From positions 1-40,004 of IMG/VR virus record IMGVR_UViG_3300025087_000178: DNA of 40,004 bases; one strand, 5' to 3'. Below, in pieces: positions 10,826 through 40,004 of the stretch (the first letter of the stretch is position 1; every line of letters starts with the position of its first letter). The stretch is from a virus. A program made the position numbers and the translations under genes. Below the pieces are notes generated by a model. It was not told where the DNA came from. It did not search any database and saw only the letters and a list, made by a program, of their open reading frames with translations.

Positions 10826-10854
10826 AAAAGACCACGTTATGAGCGTGGTCTTTT
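10826..10854. terminator. Bidirectional rho-independent terminator
   Basis: The stem AAAAGACCACG pairs perfectly with CGTGGTCTTTT around a 7-nt loop. It is A-rich on the left and T-rich on the right, so it can work for the rightward tail operon and for the leftward recombinase gene. The recombinase stop codon lies in the loop. Confidence 0.85.
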
Positions 10855-12486
10855 GTGTCTTCGGTTAGCGATGGGTAAATCCGCCTCGAAGGAAATACTG
10901 TGTCTATAGAGAGGTGCCCCCACGGGGGCAGAGGATAAAGACACAGTATTACTTATGACTTTTTTTTTATCAGACGGCTGGTGAAAGAATGTGATCGTGC
11001 CGTAAATGTGGTGTTTTTCGCGGGTGGATGTGATTTCGTAGATGGCGCCGAGCAGGATGCGGTGGACAAATTCACGGTCTTTGGAGCGTAGGTCTTGGTC
11101 AATTTTATGGGCGGCGGCGCGGGCTTGTTCGATGGTTGGGATAATAACAGGCGGGATGATTTGCGTTTTTAGTTTTTCGATCTTTGACAGCAGTTCGGTT
11201 TCCTGTGCTTCGGAGTTCTTCAGCCGTTTGAGCAGCGCAGGGGTATGACCTGATTCGGCGATGGCATTTGTCAGATTGGTAATTGCCTTTCGGACGGGAC
11301 CAAGCTGGGCGGCGGTCGAGGCGAGTTCTTCATCCACTAAAGTTTGATGGTTTGAATTATCCTCCTGAAAAGCTGTCATGGCGTTGATCAAGTTTTGAGG
11401 GTCGGAAAAGAATTGATGTACTTTGTCCAGGATGGTCTGTTCGAGAAAACTTGCGGAGATGGGTTTTGCGTTGCAATCATGGCGGCGCTGGGCGCGGGTG
11501 CAGGCGTAGCGCAGATAGGCGCTGCCATCGCGTTGATTGGATGTGAGACCATAATGAGGCGAGCCGCACAGCCCGCATTTTGAAATTCCCGAAAGGATGT
11601 ACACGCCGCTTTGCCTGCGCGGATGTCGTTTGCTGGTGGTCGTTTTTTGTTTTTGCGCCAGGTCTTTGATGATGACTTGCACTTTATCCCATGTTTCTTT
11701 TGTGACCATTGGTTTGCAATACTTGGGGATGACAAGATCAGAATAATGCAGCTCGCCCTTGTAAAGTGGATTTGTGAAAAACGTGAGATACGAATTGCTT
11801 GAGCCGAATAGCTGGGTCTCTGCGTGGATGAATTTGAGCGGCTGTCCCTGGGCGCGCATTTGAAATGCTTTTCTCACTCGCGTTTTGAAGGCAGGGTCGG
11901 GAACCCATTTATGCGCCACGTGTTCAGATTTGTCACGCCGCTCGCCGATGTGGACAGGTTCACGCATGAAGCCGCGCGGAGGTGTGCCAGGCACGCATCC
12001 ATATTTTTGCACCAGGTCATGCAAGCCGCGCTTTGCATCGACGCTGGTCTGATGGCGTTTTTCTTCATTGCTCATATCAATAAAAAATTCAACGAAGCGT
12101 CCGTAATTGCCTTCAGGCACTTGATCGTTGAGCGAGTGAATCACGATCCCCAATCGGCGGATGTTTATTTTATGGAGCTGCGCGTCATCAATGTCACGCG
12201 CAAAGCGGGCATAGTTCCAGAGGATGATTCCACTCGGGCGTTGATCTGGCGATAGGTACGCATCGATCATTGCCTTGAACTGGTCCCGTCCATCGGTAGT
12301 TCCCCCGCTTTTGGCATCGTCACAATAATTATTGCGCAGGATAAGACCATGCAGATTGCAAAACGCTGTGATCTCTGCGAGTTGCTGTTCTGTGGATTGG
12401 TCTTGCTTCATGCCGCCGCTGTCACGGCGATAGCTGTCAACGATTGAGCCAGGCGGAAGTGTAGATGGGGGAGGAAGGTAGGTCAT
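10837..12486 (-). CDS. Large serine recombinase (phage integrase)
   Basis: A 549-aa enzyme. The N-terminal resolvase domain has Y19-R20-x-D22-S23, with Ser23 the expected nucleophile, then GRDQFKAM and WNYARFARD. A recombinase domain follows at about 165-260, and a zinc ribbon with C304, C307, C329 and C338. A coiled-coil stretch lies at about 370-460. Length and order match large serine integrases, which recombine attP and attB in one direction. Its ATG overlaps the stop of the upstream gene (TAATG). It is the last gene of the leftward lysogeny operon and ends in a shared terminator. All key residues are present. Confidence 0.93.
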   Translation of the reverse strand: MTYLPPPSTLPPGSIVDSYRRDSGGMKQDQSTEQQLAEITAFCNLHGLILRNNYCDDAKSGGTTDGRDQFKAMIDAYLSPDQRPSGIILWNYARFARDIDDAQLHKINIRRLGIVIHSLNDQVPEGNYGRFVEFFIDMSNEEKRHQTSVDAKRGLHDLVQKYGCVPGTPPRGFMREPVHIGERRDKSEHVAHKWVPDPAFKTRVRKAFQMRAQGQPLKFIHAETQLFGSSNSYLTFFTNPLYKGELHYSDLVIPKYCKPMVTKETWDKVQVIIKDLAQKQKTTTSKRHPRRQSGVYILSGISKCGLCGSPHYGLTSNQRDGSAYLRYACTRAQRRHDCNAKPISASFLEQTILDKVHQFFSDPQNLINAMTAFQEDNSNHQTLVDEELASTAAQLGPVRKAITNLTNAIAESGHTPALLKRLKNSEAQETELLSKIEKLKTQIIPPVIIPTIEQARAAAHKIDQDLRSKDREFVHRILLGAIYEITSTREKHHIYGTITFFHQPSDKKKVISNTVSLSSAPVGAPLYRHSISFEADLPIANRRHKRPRS

Positions 12487-16412: not shown

Positions 16413-16588
16413 TGTTTTCGATTGGAAATCCAGAAACAGGCAAACGCACAGACATGCGATATGAGACACAGGAGCTTGCTGATATTGCGGCAATCGAAGC
16501 CAGCATAGATGATCACATTTGGGCGGTATGGGATGAGGATGATGGGGAATTGGTCGCATTGGCATTTCAAGATAGATTATTTGATTGA
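16412..16588 (+). CDS. Small acidic protein (58 aa)
   Basis: Reads MFSIGNPETGKRTDMRYETQ then an acidic helix and WAVWDEDDGELVALAFQDRL. The start overlaps the previous stop. The alternating WAVWDE.DGELVAL strands suggest a small alpha/beta fold. No family recognised. Confidence 0.55.
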   Translation: MFSIGNPETGKRTDMRYETQELADIAAIEASIDDHIWAVWDEDDGELVALAFQDRLFD

Positions 16589-16595
16589 GGAAATC

Positions 16596-17555
16596 ATGAA
16601 CACAATTACCAATTACCAATCACCAATTACCCTGCAACTTCACTGGCTCGATCAATTCCAGTCATATCTTGAAACTGACTACCGCAAAATCACACATCGC
16701 CAGTTGAGTGGCAGTTCTATTAAAACTGCAATCCAACGTGTGCGCGAATTTGCCTTGTGGTATGAAGCCGAATTCAAACAAAGCTTCAACCCTGCCGAAC
16801 TGGTCAACTACCATTTCATCGCATTCCGCAAACATTCTCTTAACGAGGCAAAGGTCAAAGCGCGGACGTGGAATTCACGTCTATGGGCGCTCACCATTCT
16901 GTGCCAATGGATAGATGTGCCCGAATTGATCGAAGGCGTAACGGGCAAAAAACATGACCAGCTTTCAGAGAAATACCGCTCCCTGACCAAAAAAGAACGC
17001 AATGATTTGATCGTGACCTGCCAGAAGGATGTTCGCGGCTCTGTCACCCAATTTGATTATTACTGCGCTGTACGCGACTATGCCATGATCGCCGTGATGC
17101 TTGAAGCAGGTCTGCGCGTGGCTGAATGCGCGGCTCTCGACGTGGATGATATTGTCATCGGCGAACGTTCGGGGCATGTGCTGGTGCGTGATGGCAAGGG
17201 AGAGAAGGAACGCAAAGTGCCGCTGACTGTGGAACTTGTCCGCCCTGCATTAAAAGCGTGGATCGAAGTGCGCGGCGCGGCTCAAACCTCCGCCCTGTGG
17301 CTGGGCAAAACAACCGAGCGACTCAGCGCCCGAAGCATGGAGCGCATCGTCAAAGGCATCTCTTCTCGAATTAGTTCGCCTGAAATTACCCCCCATTGCC
17401 TGCGCTACGAGTTTGAGAAGAACCTCCAGCGCAGCAAAGGCATGGACATTGTAGACATCAGCCGCTTGCTGGGTCACAACTCCATCGAAGTCACCAAACG
17501 CTATCTGCGCTCTTCGATGGATGATCTACTGTCCGCTATGGAAGGGGTGATGTGA
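16596..17555 (+). CDS. Tyrosine recombinase / integrase
   Basis: A 319-aa protein with all catalytic residues visible: R174 (AGLRVAECAAL), K201 or K204 (GKGEKERKVPL), H267 and R270 (PHCLRYEF), H294 (LLGHNS) and Y303 (KRYL). The N-terminal 120 residues fit a SAM-like core-binding domain. GAGG precedes the ATG at 16596; an in-frame start at 16509 lies inside the previous gene. It sits in the early region, away from the serine integrase, so it may act as an accessory recombinase, for example in dimer resolution, or as a second integrase. Its first codons are made of an AATTACC tandem repeat. Confidence 0.9.
   Translation: MNTITNYQSPITLQLHWLDQFQSYLETDYRKITHRQLSGSSIKTAIQRVREFALWYEAEFKQSFNPAELVNYHFIAFRKHSLNEAKVKARTWNSRLWALTILCQWIDVPELIEGVTGKKHDQLSEKYRSLTKKERNDLIVTCQKDVRGSVTQFDYYCAVRDYAMIAVMLEAGLRVAECAALDVDDIVIGERSGHVLVRDGKGEKERKVPLTVELVRPALKAWIEVRGAAQTSALWLGKTTERLSARSMERIVKGISSRISSPEITPHCLRYEFEKNLQRSKGMDIVDISRLLGHNSIEVTKRYLRSSMDDLLSAMEGVM
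16604..16631 (+). repeat. AATTACCA short tandem repeat within recombinase start
   Basis: Four units of the ATTACCA/TCACCA type encode ITNYQSPIT at the N-terminus of the tyrosine recombinase. Similar repeats are widespread in cyanobacterial and Chloroflexota genomes (from memory). In-frame invasion of the N-terminus by the repeat seems likely. Confidence 0.5.
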
Positions 17556-18735: not shown

Positions 18736-19101
18736 TTAATATCAACCGCCAATAATCACAGGTCAGTTCGCCATGTCCACCCGCCGCGCCAATCACTCTG
18801 TATCAGTAGTAGAAAGAATCCCAATGTTCACCATATTCATGTGCGTATGGTGGCATGGGCAGGCACACCACCAGAAACGCGCGGCTGTGTCAGTAATAGG
18901 CATTATGCGACACAAAGTGCGTGATAGCGGGCATACCTGGCGGTTAGATTGGGCTGTAAGGCAAACATTATCTGTCGCATAAGGTAGAGAGGCAAGGGGG
19001 GTGGGGGTGTTCGGCGAATTGTTTTGGTTTTGCGGGTAGGTGTGTGGCAGCACGGCTCGGATAGTTATAAAAATTCTGGAAAAACGCTGGAGAAAATGTT
19101 C
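18736..19101. other. Intergenic region with 10-bp inverted repeat before the primase gene
   Basis: About 365 bases with no convincing gene. TTATGCGACA at 18903-18912 pairs with TGTCGCATAA at 18973-18982, enclosing 60 nt. AACCGCCAATAA at 18744-18755 resembles two copies downstream of the parR-like gene. A G-rich stretch lies near 18994-19010. It may hold a promoter, a structured RNA or a regulatory site. A 69-codon frame at 18773-18982 is not credible as a gene. Confidence 0.45.
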
Positions 19102-22100
19102 ATGGATAACTTTGTGGCAGAGTTGAAAAAAAGGATCAGAATTGAAGATGTCATCAGCGAGACTGTTGAGTTGGATAAAGGCAACAGGCGTGGATATACG
19201 CGCGGGGCGAAACGCGGCGCAGGCGAACATGGCTTGGTTGTTGATCTGGACGGTCAGCGTTTTTCGTGGAATGGGAATGCTGAATATGGTGGCGGCAGAT
19301 ACAACGATGTGATCTATTGGGTGATGGTTCGTGACCGTGTTGACTTCAAACATGCGTTGGAAACGCTTGCACGCAAGGCGGGGATGGAATTACCGAAGTG
19401 GAATGAAGAGCAACAAGTGAAATTCGCCGCTGTGCGCAAGCAGGAAGATGTATTGGAAACCGCCCAGCGTATTTTTGCTGAATGGCTTTGGAAAGATGAG
19501 AAGGCATTGGCATATGTGCGCGGTCGTAGGTGGACAGATGAGACGATTAAGGCGGCAGGGCTAGGCTTCACTGGATATGGGACGACCACTGAATATGAAC
19601 TTATGAAGAACGCTATTGCTGCTACTGAGGATTTGCACTCGCCCGCGGCGGTTGCGATTCTGGGACTGCGGGGCGGCGTGAAGAGTTGGTGCGAGAAGCG
19701 CGGCATACAGCCAAAAATCAACTGGGAGGAAAAAGATTTCATACCGTCCATGTTGGGATGGAAAGATAAATTCGGTCTTATTTACCCATGTATTTATTTT
19801 GGGAGAACCACTTATTTATATCGCCGCCATCTGATGCTGAATGAAGATAAATCTGCATTGATCGGTTCGGATGAGCCGAAAAGCTATAACCTACCAGAGG
19901 CATTGATTGGCAATCGCCAATTATTTTTCAATCATGTTTATTCGCCGCGTGCTGAGCGAGTTGTGTTTGTTGAGGGACCTGGGGACGCGGTGACGCTCGG
20001 ACAGTGGGGGGTGGATGCTGTTGCTATCGCTGGAACAGCCTGGGGCGATCACGAAGCAGCTCTTCGTCAATTGAGGGAAGCGAAGTTTGGGGATGCTCCC
20101 GCACACGAGGCTTTGTATATCGCGTTGGATTCGGATAAGGCAGGGAGTGAATCGGTGCGCGGCAAAAACGGTGAGTGGCCGTTGGTCGAAATCCTTGGAC
20201 CCATGTGCAGAGTGATCGAGTGGCCAGAGAAGGATGCAAATGACTGGCTGCAGATGATGGTCAAAAGCGAGATCGTACTGGACGATCAAAAGATAATGGC
20301 GGCGCAACAAATCGGAGCGGCGAAGCCTTTGGCGCTGCAGGTGGCAAAGTGGGCAGGCTTGCAAACCGATGACCATTCAAAGAGCAAGGCATTGACACGC
20401 GCGTTTCAGGTCATTGCGCAAATGGGTGATGAGAATTTGGTCATGCAATACGTTGGTGATTTCCTCGGAGCGTTTCGACCTTTGGGCGAGACCGTGAAGG
20501 GCGTGCGCGAATTCACACGGCTGCTTAAGAAGGCAATGGGTAAGAGTGAAGAGGGCGATGAGCGGAAAGAAGAGGTCATTTACACCTACGGCGGGCGGAT
20601 CGGTGATTGGCTGTTGGAATATTGCTATGATGATGAAAAGGGTAAGGCGCGATTCGCCTATCGAGATCCAAATGGAAAGGTTGATGAGGCTGACGATCTA
20701 TTGATCGATGGTAAACGTTATAAGCCGAAATTCCCAGACGACAAAATGATAACGAAGGGCGCGATCCAATTCCCTTCGGGGCTGGCGCGGCGTGAGGATG
20801 GAAGCATCGACCGCAAGAGCACGCGCGAATTGACCACCATCATTGCGATCACGGTCCGCAAGAATTACTTGTTTCGAGATATGAAGTGGCCGCAGCTCGC
20901 ATCCTATTGGATCATGGGAACGTGGATGTATGACAATTTCAGCGAGTTGGTGTACCTGCGCATGGTGGGCGATGCTGGAGCGGGAAAGAGCGCGTTGTTG
21001 AATCTGATTGGCGGCATGTGTTACCGCTCGATCAAGATGAGCGGTGCGGACAGCGAAAGCACGTTCTTCCGGGTGGTGGATGATTTTCGGGGGACCATCC
21101 TTTTTGAAGAGGCTGACCTGCCCGATAACAGCGGGGCGGATAACCCAATCGTCAAATTCGTGAATCTGGGTGCGATGCGCGGGAATTACATCTATCGCAA
21201 TGAAGAGTTTATTGATGGTGATGGAAATAAAGGCTGGCGTCCGACACCGTTTGAGACCTACTGTCCAAAGATGTTTGCTATGCGCGGGGACTTCATGGAT
21301 AACGCTGTTGCCAGCCGTGCGATCTCGTTGAAGTTGACTTCAGCAGAGACTTCTGAACTGCGTGATGCGGGCATTCCATTGCGTTTGTCGCGGCTGGTGA
21401 TGCGGAGCCTGAAACGAATTCAGAACCTGTGTTTGACATGGCGCTTGCATGAATATTCTTTAGAGGAACGTGAATTAGGCTGGGACCTTGTGGACGTGGA
21501 GATCCCCGCACGCTTCAACCAGGTGACGATGCCAATGAAAAGTTTGGCGATGAATGTGGACGGTTCGCGCGATGAAGAATTTTTGAACCAGATCACGATG
21601 CTGCTGCGTAGCCATTACCAGGACATCGTGGGCGAGAATTCAACGACGTGGGAAGCGCGTGTGGCGGAAGCTATTTGGAAGATGTACACCTACTCAGATC
21701 TGCGGTCTCGCATGGTAATCAAGGATGATGGCGAGATCTATATCAAGGTTGGGGATGTATCTGCATTGGCAAACAATATCGCTGATGAAATGAACGAGGA
21801 AGGCGCGGACTTGCGGATCAAGAAAGATGAAGGCGCGGAAGATGGGTCGCCCGCTGCGCGGAAAGGCAAGAAGAATTTTGACCTTTCAGCCCAGCGTGTG
21901 GGCAGGATCATCCGCGATAAATTTCAACTTTATACGCCTCCCCGAACTGGCAAAGGTATTTACTTCCTTTGGGACGATGGAAAGATGATGGCTATTGGAA
22001 AGAAATATGGGGCACTGCCTGCAATGGAGAAAATCGAGAAAGCGCGGCAGGAAATGGCGGCTTTACGGGCCAAGAAGGCAGTCACGCTGCCATTGATCGT

Positions 22101-22161
22101 GGATGAAACAGATCCTTCGACTGCGCTCCTCTCCGCTCAGGACGAAGAGGAAGCGGTGTAG
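19102..22161 (+). CDS. Primase-helicase fusion
   Basis: A 1019-aa protein from the ATG at 19102, 9 bases after GGAG; an ATG at 19096 is also possible. Residues 1-95 resemble a DnaG-type N-terminal domain but have no Cys zinc ligands. The Toprim core lies at about 285-345 (VFVEGPGDAVTL and IALDSDKAGSES). A helicase ATPase follows at about 620: GDAGAGKS (Walker A), TILFEEAD (Walker B), then NLGAMRGNYIYRN. Both activities needed to prime and unwind phage DNA are therefore in one chain. It is directly followed by the iteron cluster, consistent with origin-linked replication. Confidence 0.88.
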   Translation: MDNFVAELKKRIRIEDVISETVELDKGNRRGYTRGAKRGAGEHGLVVDLDGQRFSWNGNAEYGGGRYNDVIYWVMVRDRVDFKHALETLARKAGMELPKWNEEQQVKFAAVRKQEDVLETAQRIFAEWLWKDEKALAYVRGRRWTDETIKAAGLGFTGYGTTTEYELMKNAIAATEDLHSPAAVAILGLRGGVKSWCEKRGIQPKINWEEKDFIPSMLGWKDKFGLIYPCIYFGRTTYLYRRHLMLNEDKSALIGSDEPKSYNLPEALIGNRQLFFNHVYSPRAERVVFVEGPGDAVTLGQWGVDAVAIAGTAWGDHEAALRQLREAKFGDAPAHEALYIALDSDKAGSESVRGKNGEWPLVEILGPMCRVIEWPEKDANDWLQMMVKSEIVLDDQKIMAAQQIGAAKPLALQVAKWAGLQTDDHSKSKALTRAFQVIAQMGDENLVMQYVGDFLGAFRPLGETVKGVREFTRLLKKAMGKSEEGDERKEEVIYTYGGRIGDWLLEYCYDDEKGKARFAYRDPNGKVDEADDLLIDGKRYKPKFPDDKMITKGAIQFPSGLARREDGSIDRKSTRELTTIIAITVRKNYLFRDMKWPQLASYWIMGTWMYDNFSELVYLRMVGDAGAGKSALLNLIGGMCYRSIKMSGADSESTFFRVVDDFRGTILFEEADLPDNSGADNPIVKFVNLGAMRGNYIYRNEEFIDGDGNKGWRPTPFETYCPKMFAMRGDFMDNAVASRAISLKLTSAETSELRDAGIPLRLSRLVMRSLKRIQNLCLTWRLHEYSLEERELGWDLVDVEIPARFNQVTMPMKSLAMNVDGSRDEEFLNQITMLLRSHYQDIVGENSTTWEARVAEAIWKMYTYSDLRSRMVIKDDGEIYIKVGDVSALANNIADEMNEEGADLRIKKDEGAEDGSPAARKGKKNFDLSAQRVGRIIRDKFQLYTPPRTGKGIYFLWDDGKMMAIGKKYGALPAMEKIEKARQEMAALRAKKAVTLPLIVDETDPSTALLSAQDEEEAV

Positions 22162-22435
22162 GTGAACAAGTGAACAGAAAATGCCTGCTGAGGGTGCAAT
22201 ACATTATGTTTTGTATCCTGTGGCTGAAAAGTGCTTCACTTGTTCATTGGACGGTAAAAATGGCTTTTTTGAGGCTTTTACCCTTGTTTTTGGTCACTTA
22301 CTTCATTATTTACTATCTATATATATATGAAGAAGTGAATAAGTATGAACAACATGGTAACAGTATGCGTCAATTTGCCTTGTATGTAATGAACAAGTGA
22401 ACTTCAAAAAAATGGCATGTTCATAGACGTTCACT
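22162..22435. other. Iteron-like repeats: candidate replication origin
   Basis: The 12-mer TGAACAAGTGAA occurs exactly at 22163-22174 (+), 22235-22246 (-) and 22390-22401 (+). It occurs with one mismatch at 22328-22339 (+) and in a degenerate form at 22294-22305 (-). GTTCA half-sites lie at 22419 and 22429. An AT-rich run (TACTATCTATATATATATG, about 22312-22329) lies in the middle. The cluster directly follows the primase-helicase gene. This is the layout of an iteron origin, though no RepA-like initiator was recognised. A 76-codon hydrophobic frame across it (22170-22400) is probably not a gene. Confidence 0.65.
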
Positions 22436-23951: not shown

Positions 23952-24926
23952 ATGGAAACAAAAACAATGATCTCGGTTGGTTTCGACGGTGGGTTTGGCG
24001 GCATGAAAATGTGGAGTCATGCTGGCGGGTTGGAGATGCTTTCTCAAGTGGCTACCAATGGCGGCGGGCATTTCGAAGGGATGATCGGTCTGAAACAAAC
24101 GGAGCGTCCGTTGATGATCGAGACTACAGACGGCCAATTCTATGTTGGGGCGCGGTCGCACAATTACGGGCGGCGGGTTGAGAACATGAGTTTTGATCGT
24201 TTCGGTGGAAGTCCTGAGATGCGGGCGATGGTGTACGGTATTTTCACGAAATATATCGAAACCAACGGCGCTTTCGATGCTCCGCTTTCGGTGATGGTGG
24301 GTCTTCCGCTGGCGATGATGGGTGAGGATTTGAAGGAAAGCCGTCTTGCCATTCGCCGCTGGATGATCGGGCGGCATGATTGGGAGGCAAACGGCAAGCC
24401 TTACAGTGTGGAAGTGGGGCGGGTGCGCTGGAATTCGCAACCTGTGGGCGCGCTGTTTGATTATGTGATGAATTTTGACGGTCAGCCTGTGGCAGGGCAT
24501 GAGCGCGCTTTGCGTGAGCGCATTGGCGTTTTGAGCGTTGGAATGAACACAGTTGAAAAGATGGTGATCGATAACCAGACGTTGAATGAGGCTTTGACTG
24601 ACAGCGATAAACTCGGCGTCCGTCGCCTACTGGAATTGACTGGTGTGAAAATGTCGATTGGTGAGCGGGATGTGATGCTGCGCAATGGAAACCTAAAATA
24701 TAAAGATAAATTGCCTGTGTGGGCGAGTGAGGTCAACGGGTGTATCGAGCGAAAATGGGGAGAGGATTTGGAGAGCTTTTCAGCGGTGCTGGTGGTTGGG
24801 GGCGGGGCGCTGTTGCTGGGTAATATGCTCAATCTGGTTGCAGGCGGTGTGAATAAGGCAGTTGTTACTGAGAACCCTGTCCTTTCGATTGCGAGCGGGC
24901 TTTATAAACTGGATAAGGCAAAATAA
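23952..24926 (+). CDS. parM: ParM/StbA-like actin ATPase (plasmid partition)
   Basis: A 324-aa protein with actin-family features. The phosphate-1 loop is GFDGGFGGMKM at 10-20 (DxGxGxxK with D12, G14, G16, K19). Phosphate-2 is weak (VLSVGMNTVEKMV, without the usual DIG). The adenosine motif is VVGGGALLLG near 285-295. Length matches ParM (about 320 aa). The gene directly downstream has the right size for the adaptor ParR. Such filaments push sister plasmids apart. On a phage genome this points to an extrachromosomal, plasmid-like prophage state (inference). The symbol is by family similarity only. Confidence 0.7.
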   Translation: METKTMISVGFDGGFGGMKMWSHAGGLEMLSQVATNGGGHFEGMIGLKQTERPLMIETTDGQFYVGARSHNYGRRVENMSFDRFGGSPEMRAMVYGIFTKYIETNGAFDAPLSVMVGLPLAMMGEDLKESRLAIRRWMIGRHDWEANGKPYSVEVGRVRWNSQPVGALFDYVMNFDGQPVAGHERALRERIGVLSVGMNTVEKMVIDNQTLNEALTDSDKLGVRRLLELTGVKMSIGERDVMLRNGNLKYKDKLPVWASEVNGCIERKWGEDLESFSAVLVVGGGALLLGNMLNLVAGGVNKAVVTENPVLSIASGLYKLDKAK

Positions 24927-24928
24927 AA

Positions 24929-25228
24929 ATGGCGGCTCCGAAGAAACCCGGCAAGGTACGACATTTTCATATTGATCCTTATTTGAGGGTCAAGCATGAT
25001 GATCTATCAATGTCGTTTGCCAATGATAAAAGGGTTGATCGTTTTCTAATCTGGTGGGATGGATTGCCATCCCGCCAGCGGACGAAAATGGCGCTGGAGT
25101 TGTTGGTTGCCGCGTGTAATGGTGAGCTGGGGATTGCGCCTGGTGTCGTGATGGAAGGTAACGAGAGCGCGGAGAATAAGTCTGCGCTGGATGAGTTATT
25201 GAAGAATATGGTGTTTGATGAAGAATGA
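24929..25228 (+). CDS. Candidate ParR-like partition adaptor
   Basis: A 99-aa protein starting 2 bases after the ParM-like gene. It has a basic N-terminus, a possible ribbon-helix-helix segment (RHFHIDPYLRVKHDDLSM), helices with RVDRFLIWWDGLPSRQRTKMALELLV, and an acidic tail. ParR proteins are small DNA-binding RHH proteins encoded right after ParM, and this fits in size and position. The RHH assignment is tentative. Confidence 0.5.
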   Translation: MAAPKKPGKVRHFHIDPYLRVKHDDLSMSFANDKRVDRFLIWWDGLPSRQRTKMALELLVAACNGELGIAPGVVMEGNESAENKSALDELLKNMVFDEE

Positions 25229-25250
25229 TCCTGGTTTTGATTTGCTTTTG

Positions 25251-25376
25251 AATTTAACCGTCAATAATGGAAAATTTCAATTTAACCGCTAATAACCCCC
25301 CTCCCCCAGTTGCGTGTTTTGTGCGTGCGCTGGCTGTGGACATAGAAATGGACATCCTCCCTTGATGGGGGAGGGG
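25251..25376. repeat. Direct repeats and inverted repeat downstream of parR-like gene
   Basis: AATTTAACCGTCAATAA (25251-25267) and AATTTAACCGCTAATAA (25279-25295) are direct repeats 28 bp apart. CCCCTCCCCCA (25298-25308) pairs with TGGGGGAGGGG (25366-25376). The gap 25229-25392 holds no gene. The direct repeats could be part of a partition centromere (parC-like) or operator, though two copies are few. The C/G-rich hairpin resembles the one after the capsid gene. Confidence 0.5.
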
Positions 25377-26167: not shown

Positions 26168-26918
26168 GAATTCTACAATCAATTGGACAGACCATACTGC
26201 GAATTTTTGGTGGGGTTGTCAAAAGGTAAGCGACGGATGCAAAAATTGTTATGCCGAAACATTTTCAAAGCGTTTTGGAAAACACATCTGGGGTCCCGTT
26301 GAGACGACGAGCCGCGAACGTAAGAAGGCGATTTGGAATGATATTTTGAGGTGGGATAGGGAAGCGAAGACTGACGGAATTCGGCGGCGCGTGTTTGTTT
26401 CGAGCATGAGTGATTTTCTTGAGGATCATCCGCAGGTTTTTGAGTGGCGTGAAGAGGCAATGAATATTATTGAGCGATTGGAGTATCTGGATGTATTGTT
26501 ATTGACAAAACGCCCAGAAAATGCTTATTTGTTGGGTGATTGGAATGAGTTTGGATTACCCGCGCATGTATGGTTTGGAACGACAATCGAAAACAACAAG
26601 CAAATGCAAAGAATGATTGATGCGTTGACTGTGCCAGCGAAGATCCATTTTTTTAGTGTGGAGCCGATGCTTGAATTTGTGAATATGAATTTTCCGTCCC
26701 AGCCAAACTCTAAACGCGATACATGGGTGATTTGCGGTGGTGAGAGCGGAGCGGGTTGCAGACCGTTTGATTATATGTGGGCGCGTGATCTGCGCGATCA
26801 ATGCAAGCTGGCGAATGTACCGTTTTGGATGAAGCAGGCGGGTGGGCATCCGTATGCGCGGCATCAGATGGAGGATTTTCCGAACGATCTAAAAATTAGG
26901 GAGTTGCCTAATGAGTAA
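26160..26918 (+). CDS. DUF5131 / phage Gp37-Gp68-like Cys-cluster protein
   Basis: This 252-aa protein starts at the ATG at 26160. It has INWTDHTANFWWGC, then SDGCKNCYAE (C-x6-C-x2-C), the hallmark of the DUF5131 phage Gp37/Gp68 family, followed by VFVSSMSDFLED, LLLTKRPEN, HVWFGTTIENN, and VICGGESGAGCRPF. The family has a radical-SAM-like barrel and Cys cluster; its substrate is not established to my knowledge. It lies directly upstream of the integron integrase, overlapping its start. Confidence 0.8.
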   Translation: MAKNSTINWTDHTANFWWGCQKVSDGCKNCYAETFSKRFGKHIWGPVETTSRERKKAIWNDILRWDREAKTDGIRRRVFVSSMSDFLEDHPQVFEWREEAMNIIERLEYLDVLLLTKRPENAYLLGDWNEFGLPAHVWFGTTIENNKQMQRMIDALTVPAKIHFFSVEPMLEFVNMNFPSQPNSKRDTWVICGGESGAGCRPFDYMWARDLRDQCKLANVPFWMKQAGGHPYARHQMEDFPNDLKIRELPNE

Positions 26919-27897
26919 GTTGATGGATGAAGTTGTGGATAAGATGCGGATGTTGCATTTGTCACGCAAAACTATAAAGGCATATTCTGCAAAGATCCAT
27001 GAATATGTTCTTTTCACTGGCGCAAAACAACGAAGCGATTTGAACGATACAAGCAAAATCGAGAAGTATTTGACTTATCTGGCGACTGCGAGACGTGTGA
27101 GCGCGTCATCACAAAATCAGGCATTTTATGCGGTGTTGTTTTTATATCGTGAGGTGTTGAAAATCGAGGTGGGGAATGTCCAATCATTGCGCGCTCAAGA
27201 AGGTAAAAGACTTCCAACAGTTTTGAGCAAAGCAGATACGATGCGCGTTTTGAACTGTGTACATGGCGATCCATATCATTTGATCTCACAATTATTGTAT
27301 GGTTCGGGAATGAGGTTGAGCGAAGTGCAACAATTGCGCATCAAGGATATTGGTTTTTCCGCTTATGTGATTATGGTCCGCGCTGGAAAGGGCGATAAAG
27401 ATCGGACGGTGCCACTTCCAAGAAGTTTGGAGAAACCTCTGCGAGATCAGATTGGGATTGCACGGAATTTACATAATATCGATGTCCAGCGTGGTATGCC
27501 TGGCGTTTATGTGCCGAATGCGTTAGATGTGAAGTACCCAAATGTTGGAACTGAATGGGGATGGTTTTAGGTTTTTCCTGCGGAGAATTATTCGACTGAT
27601 CCTGAGACGAAAATTTATCGCAGGCACCATATTTATGAAACTGGAATTCAGCGCGCGGTAAAGGCGGCACGGCTTGAGGCTGGTGTCGCAGGTCATGTGA
27701 CGCCGCACACATTTCGCCATTGTTTTGCCACCCATCTTTTACAGGATGGATACAACATTCGAGTTGTGCAGGAGTTGCTTGGACATAAAGACGTGAAAAC
27801 TACCATGATCTATACCCATATCATGATGCCTGGTGGTCAGGCTGGTGTTGTCAGCCCGCTGGATAAGATGCCAGTGGAGGACATTATCCGTTTGTAG
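26911..27897 (+). pseudogene. intI: IntI-family integron integrase with one in-frame TAG
   Basis: The frame would encode 328 aa but has a TAG at codon 220 (27568-27570). Upstream are R135 (GSGMRLSEVQQLRIKDI) and K160/K163 (GKGDKDR). Downstream, in the same frame, are [21 protein letters not shown]266 and R269 (PHTFRH), H292 (LLGHKDV) and Y301 (TTMIYTH), ending [10 protein letters not shown]. The stretch YPNVGTEWGWF-stop-VFPA aligns with WPWFWVF of IntI1, so the TAG replaces Trp, one G-to-A change. The IntI-specific insert (STDP..RRHH) sets it apart from ordinary XerC/D. Without suppression the product lacks the second half of the active site. It is followed by attI and cassettes. Annotated as a probable recent pseudogene. 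Confidence 0.88.
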
Positions 27898-39270: not shown

Positions 39271-40004
39271 TGTTTATCATGGAAAGTAAGACCACGAAGT
39301 TGATCGAAAGGCTTGATGAAGTGGCTTTGGGCAATTTGGACAAGGCTTCTTTCAAAGCTCTTTTGCGGTTGCAGGTTTATTTCACTGGAAGAACGCATGA
39401 GCTAATGATCGAGTTCGGCAAGCAGGCGCGCGCGGTGATCGTGGATTATGGCGGGGCGGATGGAACGTTGGGTGGCTCCACTGGCTTTCAGGCTCAGACC
39501 AAATTGCTGAAACTTTGGGGCGATACATTCAAGACCTGGGTGGATGAGTTTTTGCAGGCGCGGCGTGAGGCTGTGAGTTTGCCGTTTGGGGTGCTGGCGG
39601 TGAGGCACGAAAGGCTAGTAAGACCAGTGATTAGTGATCAGTTATCAGTGATCAGTGAAAGCATTGAAGACGGTGTGTTCAAGCCGCAGATTGAGATTTT
39701 GTTGACGGCGGCGGGGGAGCATTTGTATGGTGACTCGTTGAATATCTCTTCGCGCATCTGGCAGATCGATGGGTTGGGACGCGATGCGATCAACCAGGTC
39801 ATCATGCAGGGCATTACCGATGGGGATTCAGCTTGGAACATTGCGAAGAAGTTGGAAGAATTTTTGGGCGCGGGGCAGGACTGTCCGCGCTGGACTTCAA
39901 CGAGGTTATATGGACGAACGGCATCTGATAAATCCGCTGGGGATACGACTGGCTTGCTCAGTGGCAATGATTGCGATGGGCGCGGCGTTAGCTATAACGC
40001 TCTG
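39270..40004 (+). CDS. MuF-like minor head protein, N-terminal part (continues at base 8)
   Basis: The gene starts on the last base of the portal stop and runs off the right end; the last 126 bases equal 8-133, and the frame continues to 541 in the circle. The N-terminal 200 residues are helical with LLRLQVYFTGRTHELMIEFG and a GITDGDSAWNIAKKLEEFLG segment typical of SPP1 gp7 / MuF proteins. A TGATCAGT repeat is inserted in frame at 39626-39658. Confidence 0.85.
   Translation, partial: MFIMESKTTKLIERLDEVALGNLDKASFKALLRLQVYFTGRTHELMIEFGKQARAVIVDYGGADGTLGGSTGFQAQTKLLKLWGDTFKTWVDEFLQARREAVSLPFGVLAVRHERLVRPVISDQLSVISESIEDGVFKPQIEILLTAAGEHLYGDSLNISSRIWQIDGLGRDAINQVIMQGITDGDSAWNIAKKLEEFLGAGQDCPRWTSTRLYGRTASDKSAGDTTGLLSGNDCDGRGVSYNAL
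39626..39658 (+). repeat. In-frame AGTGATCAGTTATC-type repeat in MuF-like gene
   Basis: About 33 bases of palindromic AGTGATTAGTGATCAGTT units encode VISDQLSVISES. The same repeat type is found in cyanobacterial and Chloroflexota genomes (recollection). It fits an exact multiple of codons, so the gene stays open. Confidence 0.6.
39879..40004. repeat. Terminal direct repeat, right copy (circular junction)
   Basis: Identical over 126 bp to 8-133. See the left copy; together they show that the molecule is circular or circularly permuted. Confidence 0.9.

Follow-up and report, generated by a model that had tools for sequence, protein, structure and literature searches.

The region at 22161-22435 of the 40,004-nt virus record IMGVR_UViG_3300025087_000178 (the whole of this stretch being referred to as the window) is very likely the replication origin of a phage, probably recognised through the predicted winged helix at the C-terminus of the primase-helicase whose gene adjoins it. 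An iteron cluster that is conserved, locked in position and co-diverging follows the genes of this primase family, together with an unwinding element. The iteron-origin reading put forward in a first-pass annotation is thus strongly supported by the conservation of the cluster, its genome-wide uniqueness and the unwinding element.

That annotation had described three exact, one single-mismatch and one degenerate copy of a repeat after the primase-helicase gene, all of which were located. A motif search of the whole record finds exact copies of TGAACAAGTGAA at 22163(+), 22235(-) and 22390(+) and a single-mismatch copy at 22328(+), these four copies spanning 239 bp directly 3' of the primase-helicase gene, and a degenerate inverted copy of the unit is present at 22418-22435. 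Each 12-mer resolves into a tandem pair of octamers with a period of 8 (GTGAACA-A-GTGAACA), the iteron unit of the window being 8 bp, (A/G)GTGAACA, in tandem pairs. The first octamer begins on the final base of the stop codon of the primase gene and five boxes, in the orientations ++ / -- / ++ / ++ / --, are spread over the 275 bp of the region, which contains the following elements:

22161-22176, + strand: iteron box 1 (++), GGTGAACAAGTGAACA, with a one-base overlap with the stop codon of the primase
22191-22219, no strand: AT-rich hairpin/palindrome with a CAAtACATtATGTtTTG core, between boxes 1 and 2
22233-22248, - strand: iteron box 2 (--), from the motif search and the relatives' weight matrix
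22295-22354, no strand: probable DNA unwinding element, where the 40-kb record has its lowest stability over 60 bp
22327-22341, + strand: iteron box 3 (++, one mismatch), ATGAAGAAGTGAATA, from the motif search and the weight matrix
22362-22379, no strand: 18-bp spacer AGTATGCGTCAATTTGCC ahead of box 4, conserved in close relatives
22389-22403, + strand: iteron box 4 (++), ATGAACAAGTGAACT, better conserved than any other box here
22418-22435, - strand: iteron box 5 (--, degenerate), TGTTCATAGACGTTCACT

With no more than one mismatch allowed, the four TGAACAAGTGAA copies are the sole matches in the 40,004-bp record, so that the whole-genome count proposed earlier as a check places no copy outside the cluster; a control motif read backwards gives 2 matches at the same threshold, versus these 4. 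With two mismatches allowed, there are 9 matches against a shuffle mean of 4.7, and at least 9 were reached in 6 of 100 shuffles, which is not clearly above chance; the significance of the motif therefore rests on the clustering and on the exact copies. In addition, when the window was scanned with a weight matrix trained on relatives alone, the four sites took ranks 1 to 4 (scores 27, 20, 16, and 16), with rank 5 scoring 9. An Rfam search returned no credible match.

Comparison with related phages, also suggested in the first-pass annotation, finds the cluster at the same place. Two virus contigs with primases 73-77% identical to that of the window carry the same boxes with the same spacing, directly 3' of the primase gene. 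A search of 2.9 million virus contigs with the DNA layout only (box 2, gap, box 4) recovered six contigs, every one of which has a homologous primase directly upstream of the cluster, and the same search with a reversed control motif found none. In each of the seven close genomes, the iteron motif with up to one mismatch is confined to the place after the primase. Boxes 1-3 are also recognisable behind an 84% identical primase on an Anaerolineales genome contig, which ends 207 bp downstream. A search of viral contigs for triple tandem octamers gave unrelated simple-repeat or coding matches only.

More distant loci, with primases as little as about 30% identical, were gathered via the primase profile alone; since many of the relatives are closely related among themselves, the loci are not independent. 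Clusters are found behind primases that are 30-84% identical, on virus contigs and on the one Anaerolineales genome contig. The most repeated hexamer, determined without reference to any motif, has its locus-wide peak within a few hundred bp after the primase stop codon in 16 of 18 loci (two of the 16 being ties with background), the exceptions being L030, in which no iteron cluster is visible after the primase (after 7829), and the truncated L036. Octamers are enriched 8- to 95-fold behind the primase in the relatives, and the orientation order ++ / -- / ++ / +(+) / -- is recognisable in most distant loci, at similar distances. The iteron itself differs between loci:

GTGAACA: window clade and L033
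GGTGAACT: L026
GGTGTACA (GTGTACA type): L027
GATGAACC: L028 and L029
ATGAGG: L031
AACGTT: L032
GGTGAACA: L035

In the primase tree, iteron type tracks well-supported clades. The topoisomerase of L029 is 88% identical to that of the window, yet its primase is only 33-34% identical and its iterons are GATGAACC; similarly, L035 has a terminase 80% identical to that of the window, yet a distant primase. This is what swapping of primase and origin as one cassette would look like.

The putative initiator is the primase-helicase itself:

19102-22161, + strand: primase-helicase, probable initiator (Pfam/PHROG/NCBIfam, profile match to DnaG structures, alignments)
21634-22026, + strand: predicted C-terminal winged helix (AlphaFold model, residues 42-172, mean pLDDT 70)
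about 21889-21921, + strand: putative recognition helix SAQRVGRIIRDKF, within the predicted winged helix

The listed open reading frame starts at a TTG at 19024, while the start conserved in relatives lies near the ATG at 19102. The domain order is a DnaG-type zinc-ribbon region, a Toprim domain, an AAA+ helicase and a probable C-terminal winged helix. A 15-member primase profile matches the solved DnaG primase 2au3 at 3e-22, and the zinc ligands of the zinc ribbon (about 19102-19400) are largely lost in the window clade and kept in L031 and L032. The helicase part displays Walker A and B motifs and matched no Pfam family; kinship with MCM was considered and discarded, the match being weak (E 0.1-0.7) and confined to the Walker A region. 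A second match to the helicase region (26% identical) was seen at 38-1054 of the L002 record (G002) and at 1397-1831 of the L016 record (G005). The fold of the full-length protein was poor (pLDDT 41) and was left out of the analysis. For the C-terminal model, the best informative matches in VIA-align were the winged helices of ORC1, archaeal Cdc6/Orc1 and CRP (Z about 7), and Foldseek gave no match at E<=0.001; with a middling model, these values support a winged-helix fold of the C-terminus, if not decisively. The solved origin-binding domain of P4 alpha is absent among the structural matches listed, which is no evidence either way. As for the reach of the family, the primase had no tblastn match and window positions 1-24000 no megablast match in the Phage GenBank collection, and a first single-protein query of genome contigs yielded no relative.

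The first-pass annotation had recognised no known initiator nearby and proposed that it could be new; the adjoining Toprim/AAA+ protein with its probable winged helix is the likelier initiator. Many plasmids use a separate Rep and, the winged-helix assignment being moderate, the iterons could form an origin that is bound by a distinct, unrecognised initiator, which would then recruit the primase-helicase. This is improbable, since no compared gene of the window adjoins the cluster in all the relatives' loci and the iteron shifts along with the primase lineage, whereas the neighbouring topoisomerase of L029 is still 88% identical; moreover, no Rep-family initiator was found among the neighbouring genes tested with Pfam, PHROG and NCBIfam. 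The co-divergence of primase and iteron instead lends indirect support to an iteron-binding specificity that would reside in the C-terminus of the helicase.

The AT-rich segment noticed early on between the repeats proved to include the least stable stretch of the record, 22295-22354, which sits between boxes 2 and 4 with box 3 inside. Likewise, in 11 of 16 loci the cluster contains the locus-wide least stable 60 bp, which mostly lies at +113 to +151; the window is among these 11, counted over its whole 40 kb. Between boxes 1 and 2, the hairpin is weak in the window (z of -1.8) and clear in relatives (-2.8 to -5.1), in which it is kept and built from a different sequence in each lineage; counterparts lie at about 7866-7899 in L026 and about 3262-3316 in L031. 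This hairpin may serve as a priming site, form a cruciform or act as a terminator; a terminator scan that included it found no standard intrinsic terminator. The skew check gave a divided answer, with a detrended GC skew minimum at 18.0 kb, 4 kb off the cluster, and a TA skew minimum at 22.18 kb; skew largely tracks gene strand, however, so neither minimum counts for much.

A cluster that is intergenic, palindromic in arrangement and placed between the primase and downstream genes might, instead of being an origin, also consist of operators through which transcription of the downstream operon is controlled or the primase regulates its own gene. Such a role is very unlikely: operators would hardly account for five boxes across 275 bp around the least stable stretch of the genome, the region yields promoter-like matches at a rate no higher than chance (2 versus 1.0 expected), and the downstream genes vary among relatives while the cluster stays. 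Further downstream lie the elements of what is probably a separate partition module:

23952-24926, + strand: ParM-like actin (phrog_691 at 1.9e-24, ALP_N)
24929-25228, + strand: 99-aa gene directly 3' of the ParM gene, candidate ParR by position alone
25247-25295: two imperfect 21-nt direct repeats just 3' of the 99-aa gene, candidate parC

The product of the 99-aa gene has no family match in Pfam, PHROG or NCBIfam. Although parC sites are likewise made of short repeats and a ParM-like actin followed by a small gene lies nearby, there is barely any chance that the cluster is the ParR-bound parC centromere of this system, which is encoded 1.8 kb further on, as six cluster-bearing records (L024, L026, L027, L031, L032, and L033), some of them fragments, have no phrog_691 match, the cluster in relatives follows the primase and not parM, and the 21-nt repeat pair is better placed as parC. 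The link to ParM drawn in the first-pass annotation is hence not needed.

For a replication origin read by the adjoining primase-helicase, we infer by analogy a mechanism that covers winged-helix binding, self-loading, priming and replication direction. The predicted C-terminal winged helix would bind the tandem (A/G)GTGAACA octamers in the five boxes, the AAA+ part would open the AT-rich 22295-22354 between boxes 2 and 4 and load itself there, and the Toprim part would synthesise the initial primers, from which a polymerase would then continue.

The closest parallel in arrangement is phage P4 (X51522), in which about 50 bp separate the alpha gene from crr, an element made of octamers GGTGAACA (TGTTCACC) in the orientations + / -- / ++ / + / -- / ++, read in the alpha sense. 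The window octamer (A/G)GTGAACA matches this type I iteron GGTGAACA; in both systems, octamers in both orientations directly follow the gene for alpha or the primase, with similar order and span, and a Toprim primase is fused to a helicase in one protein. P4 alpha binds its own repeats via a winged helix (PMC4234260). However, profile comparisons detect no sequence homology between the window protein and P4 alpha beyond Walker A, and the former has a DnaG-type zinc-ribbon region. Whole-record scans found a single iteron cluster in the window genome and no separate ori1 and crr elements, in contrast to P4, which has both; the iteron period is 8 in the window and 9-11 in P4, and the 120-bp repeat of P4 is absent. 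Finally, the window is a tailed phage with its own packaging genes, whereas P4 is a satellite. The window protein would thus work like P4 alpha, yet it is not filed as a member of the P4 alpha family, as no homology was detected and the two-element ori1/crr arrangement is lacking.

Two further systems are comparable. SaPI Rep helicases read iterons located directly downstream of their own gene via their C-terminal domain, and the SCCmec Cch2 protein reads downstream iterons with its C-terminal domain in vitro (PMC7581432). The window similarly has short iterons directly downstream of the gene for a putative initiator-helicase. In contrast, SaPI primases are of the AEP type and the priming enzyme of SCC is a separate polymerase (PMC7581432). 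The SaPI and SCC helicases are of the DUF927 or D5/Primase_Cterm type and these elements belong to Firmicutes, while the window protein matched neither helicase family and none of the 15 relatives has a Pfam match to DUF927 or D5_N/Primase_Cterm. ORF904 of pRN1 is also a primase-helicase-winged-helix protein with an essential origin sequence downstream of its gene, but it combines an AEP primase with an SF3 helicase, acts in an archaeal plasmid and has a stem-loop origin without iterons (PMC4234260). The novelty earlier suspected for the initiator thus holds for its sequence lineage and not for the arrangement, which is known from P4 alpha and SaPI Rep.

Taken together, these comparisons make it reasonably probable that the window protein represents a family of self-contained initiator-primase-helicases in Anaerolineales phages, with no detectable sequence kinship to P4 alpha. 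Its iteron specificity would have been rewired several times (GTGAACA, GTGTACA, GATGAACC, ATGAGG, AACGTT) on a constant plan of five boxes, a central unwinding element and an AT-rich hairpin, protein and origin travelling and evolving as one cassette. An anonymous repeat cluster of an uncultured phage becomes a specific initiator-origin pair that can be tested, and this in a host group of which few phages have been studied. The relatives would form a natural series in which DNA-binding domain and target changed together on a fixed scaffold, which opens the recognition code of such initiators to direct testing. That octamer and layout match P4 crr despite unrelated-looking proteins also prompts one to ask whether deep homology or convergence is behind it.

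The record ends in a 126-bp direct repeat (1-133 and 39879-40004, with a 7-base offset at the start due to an extra GCTTTTT) and is, on this ground, very probably a complete circular genome of ~39.87 kb with an untrimmed overlap. The host probably belongs to Anaerolineales (Chloroflexota), as judged from the 84% identical primase on the contig assigned to an Anaerolineales genome. The term plasmid-like, used earlier for its replication, is only partly apt: the genome encodes terminase, portal/head and tail genes. Three recombinase genes are also present in the 40 kb, at 10837-12486 (-), 16509-17555 (+) and 26911-27570 (+); one is large and serine integrase-like and two are tyrosine recombinase-like, one of these being short (219 aa).
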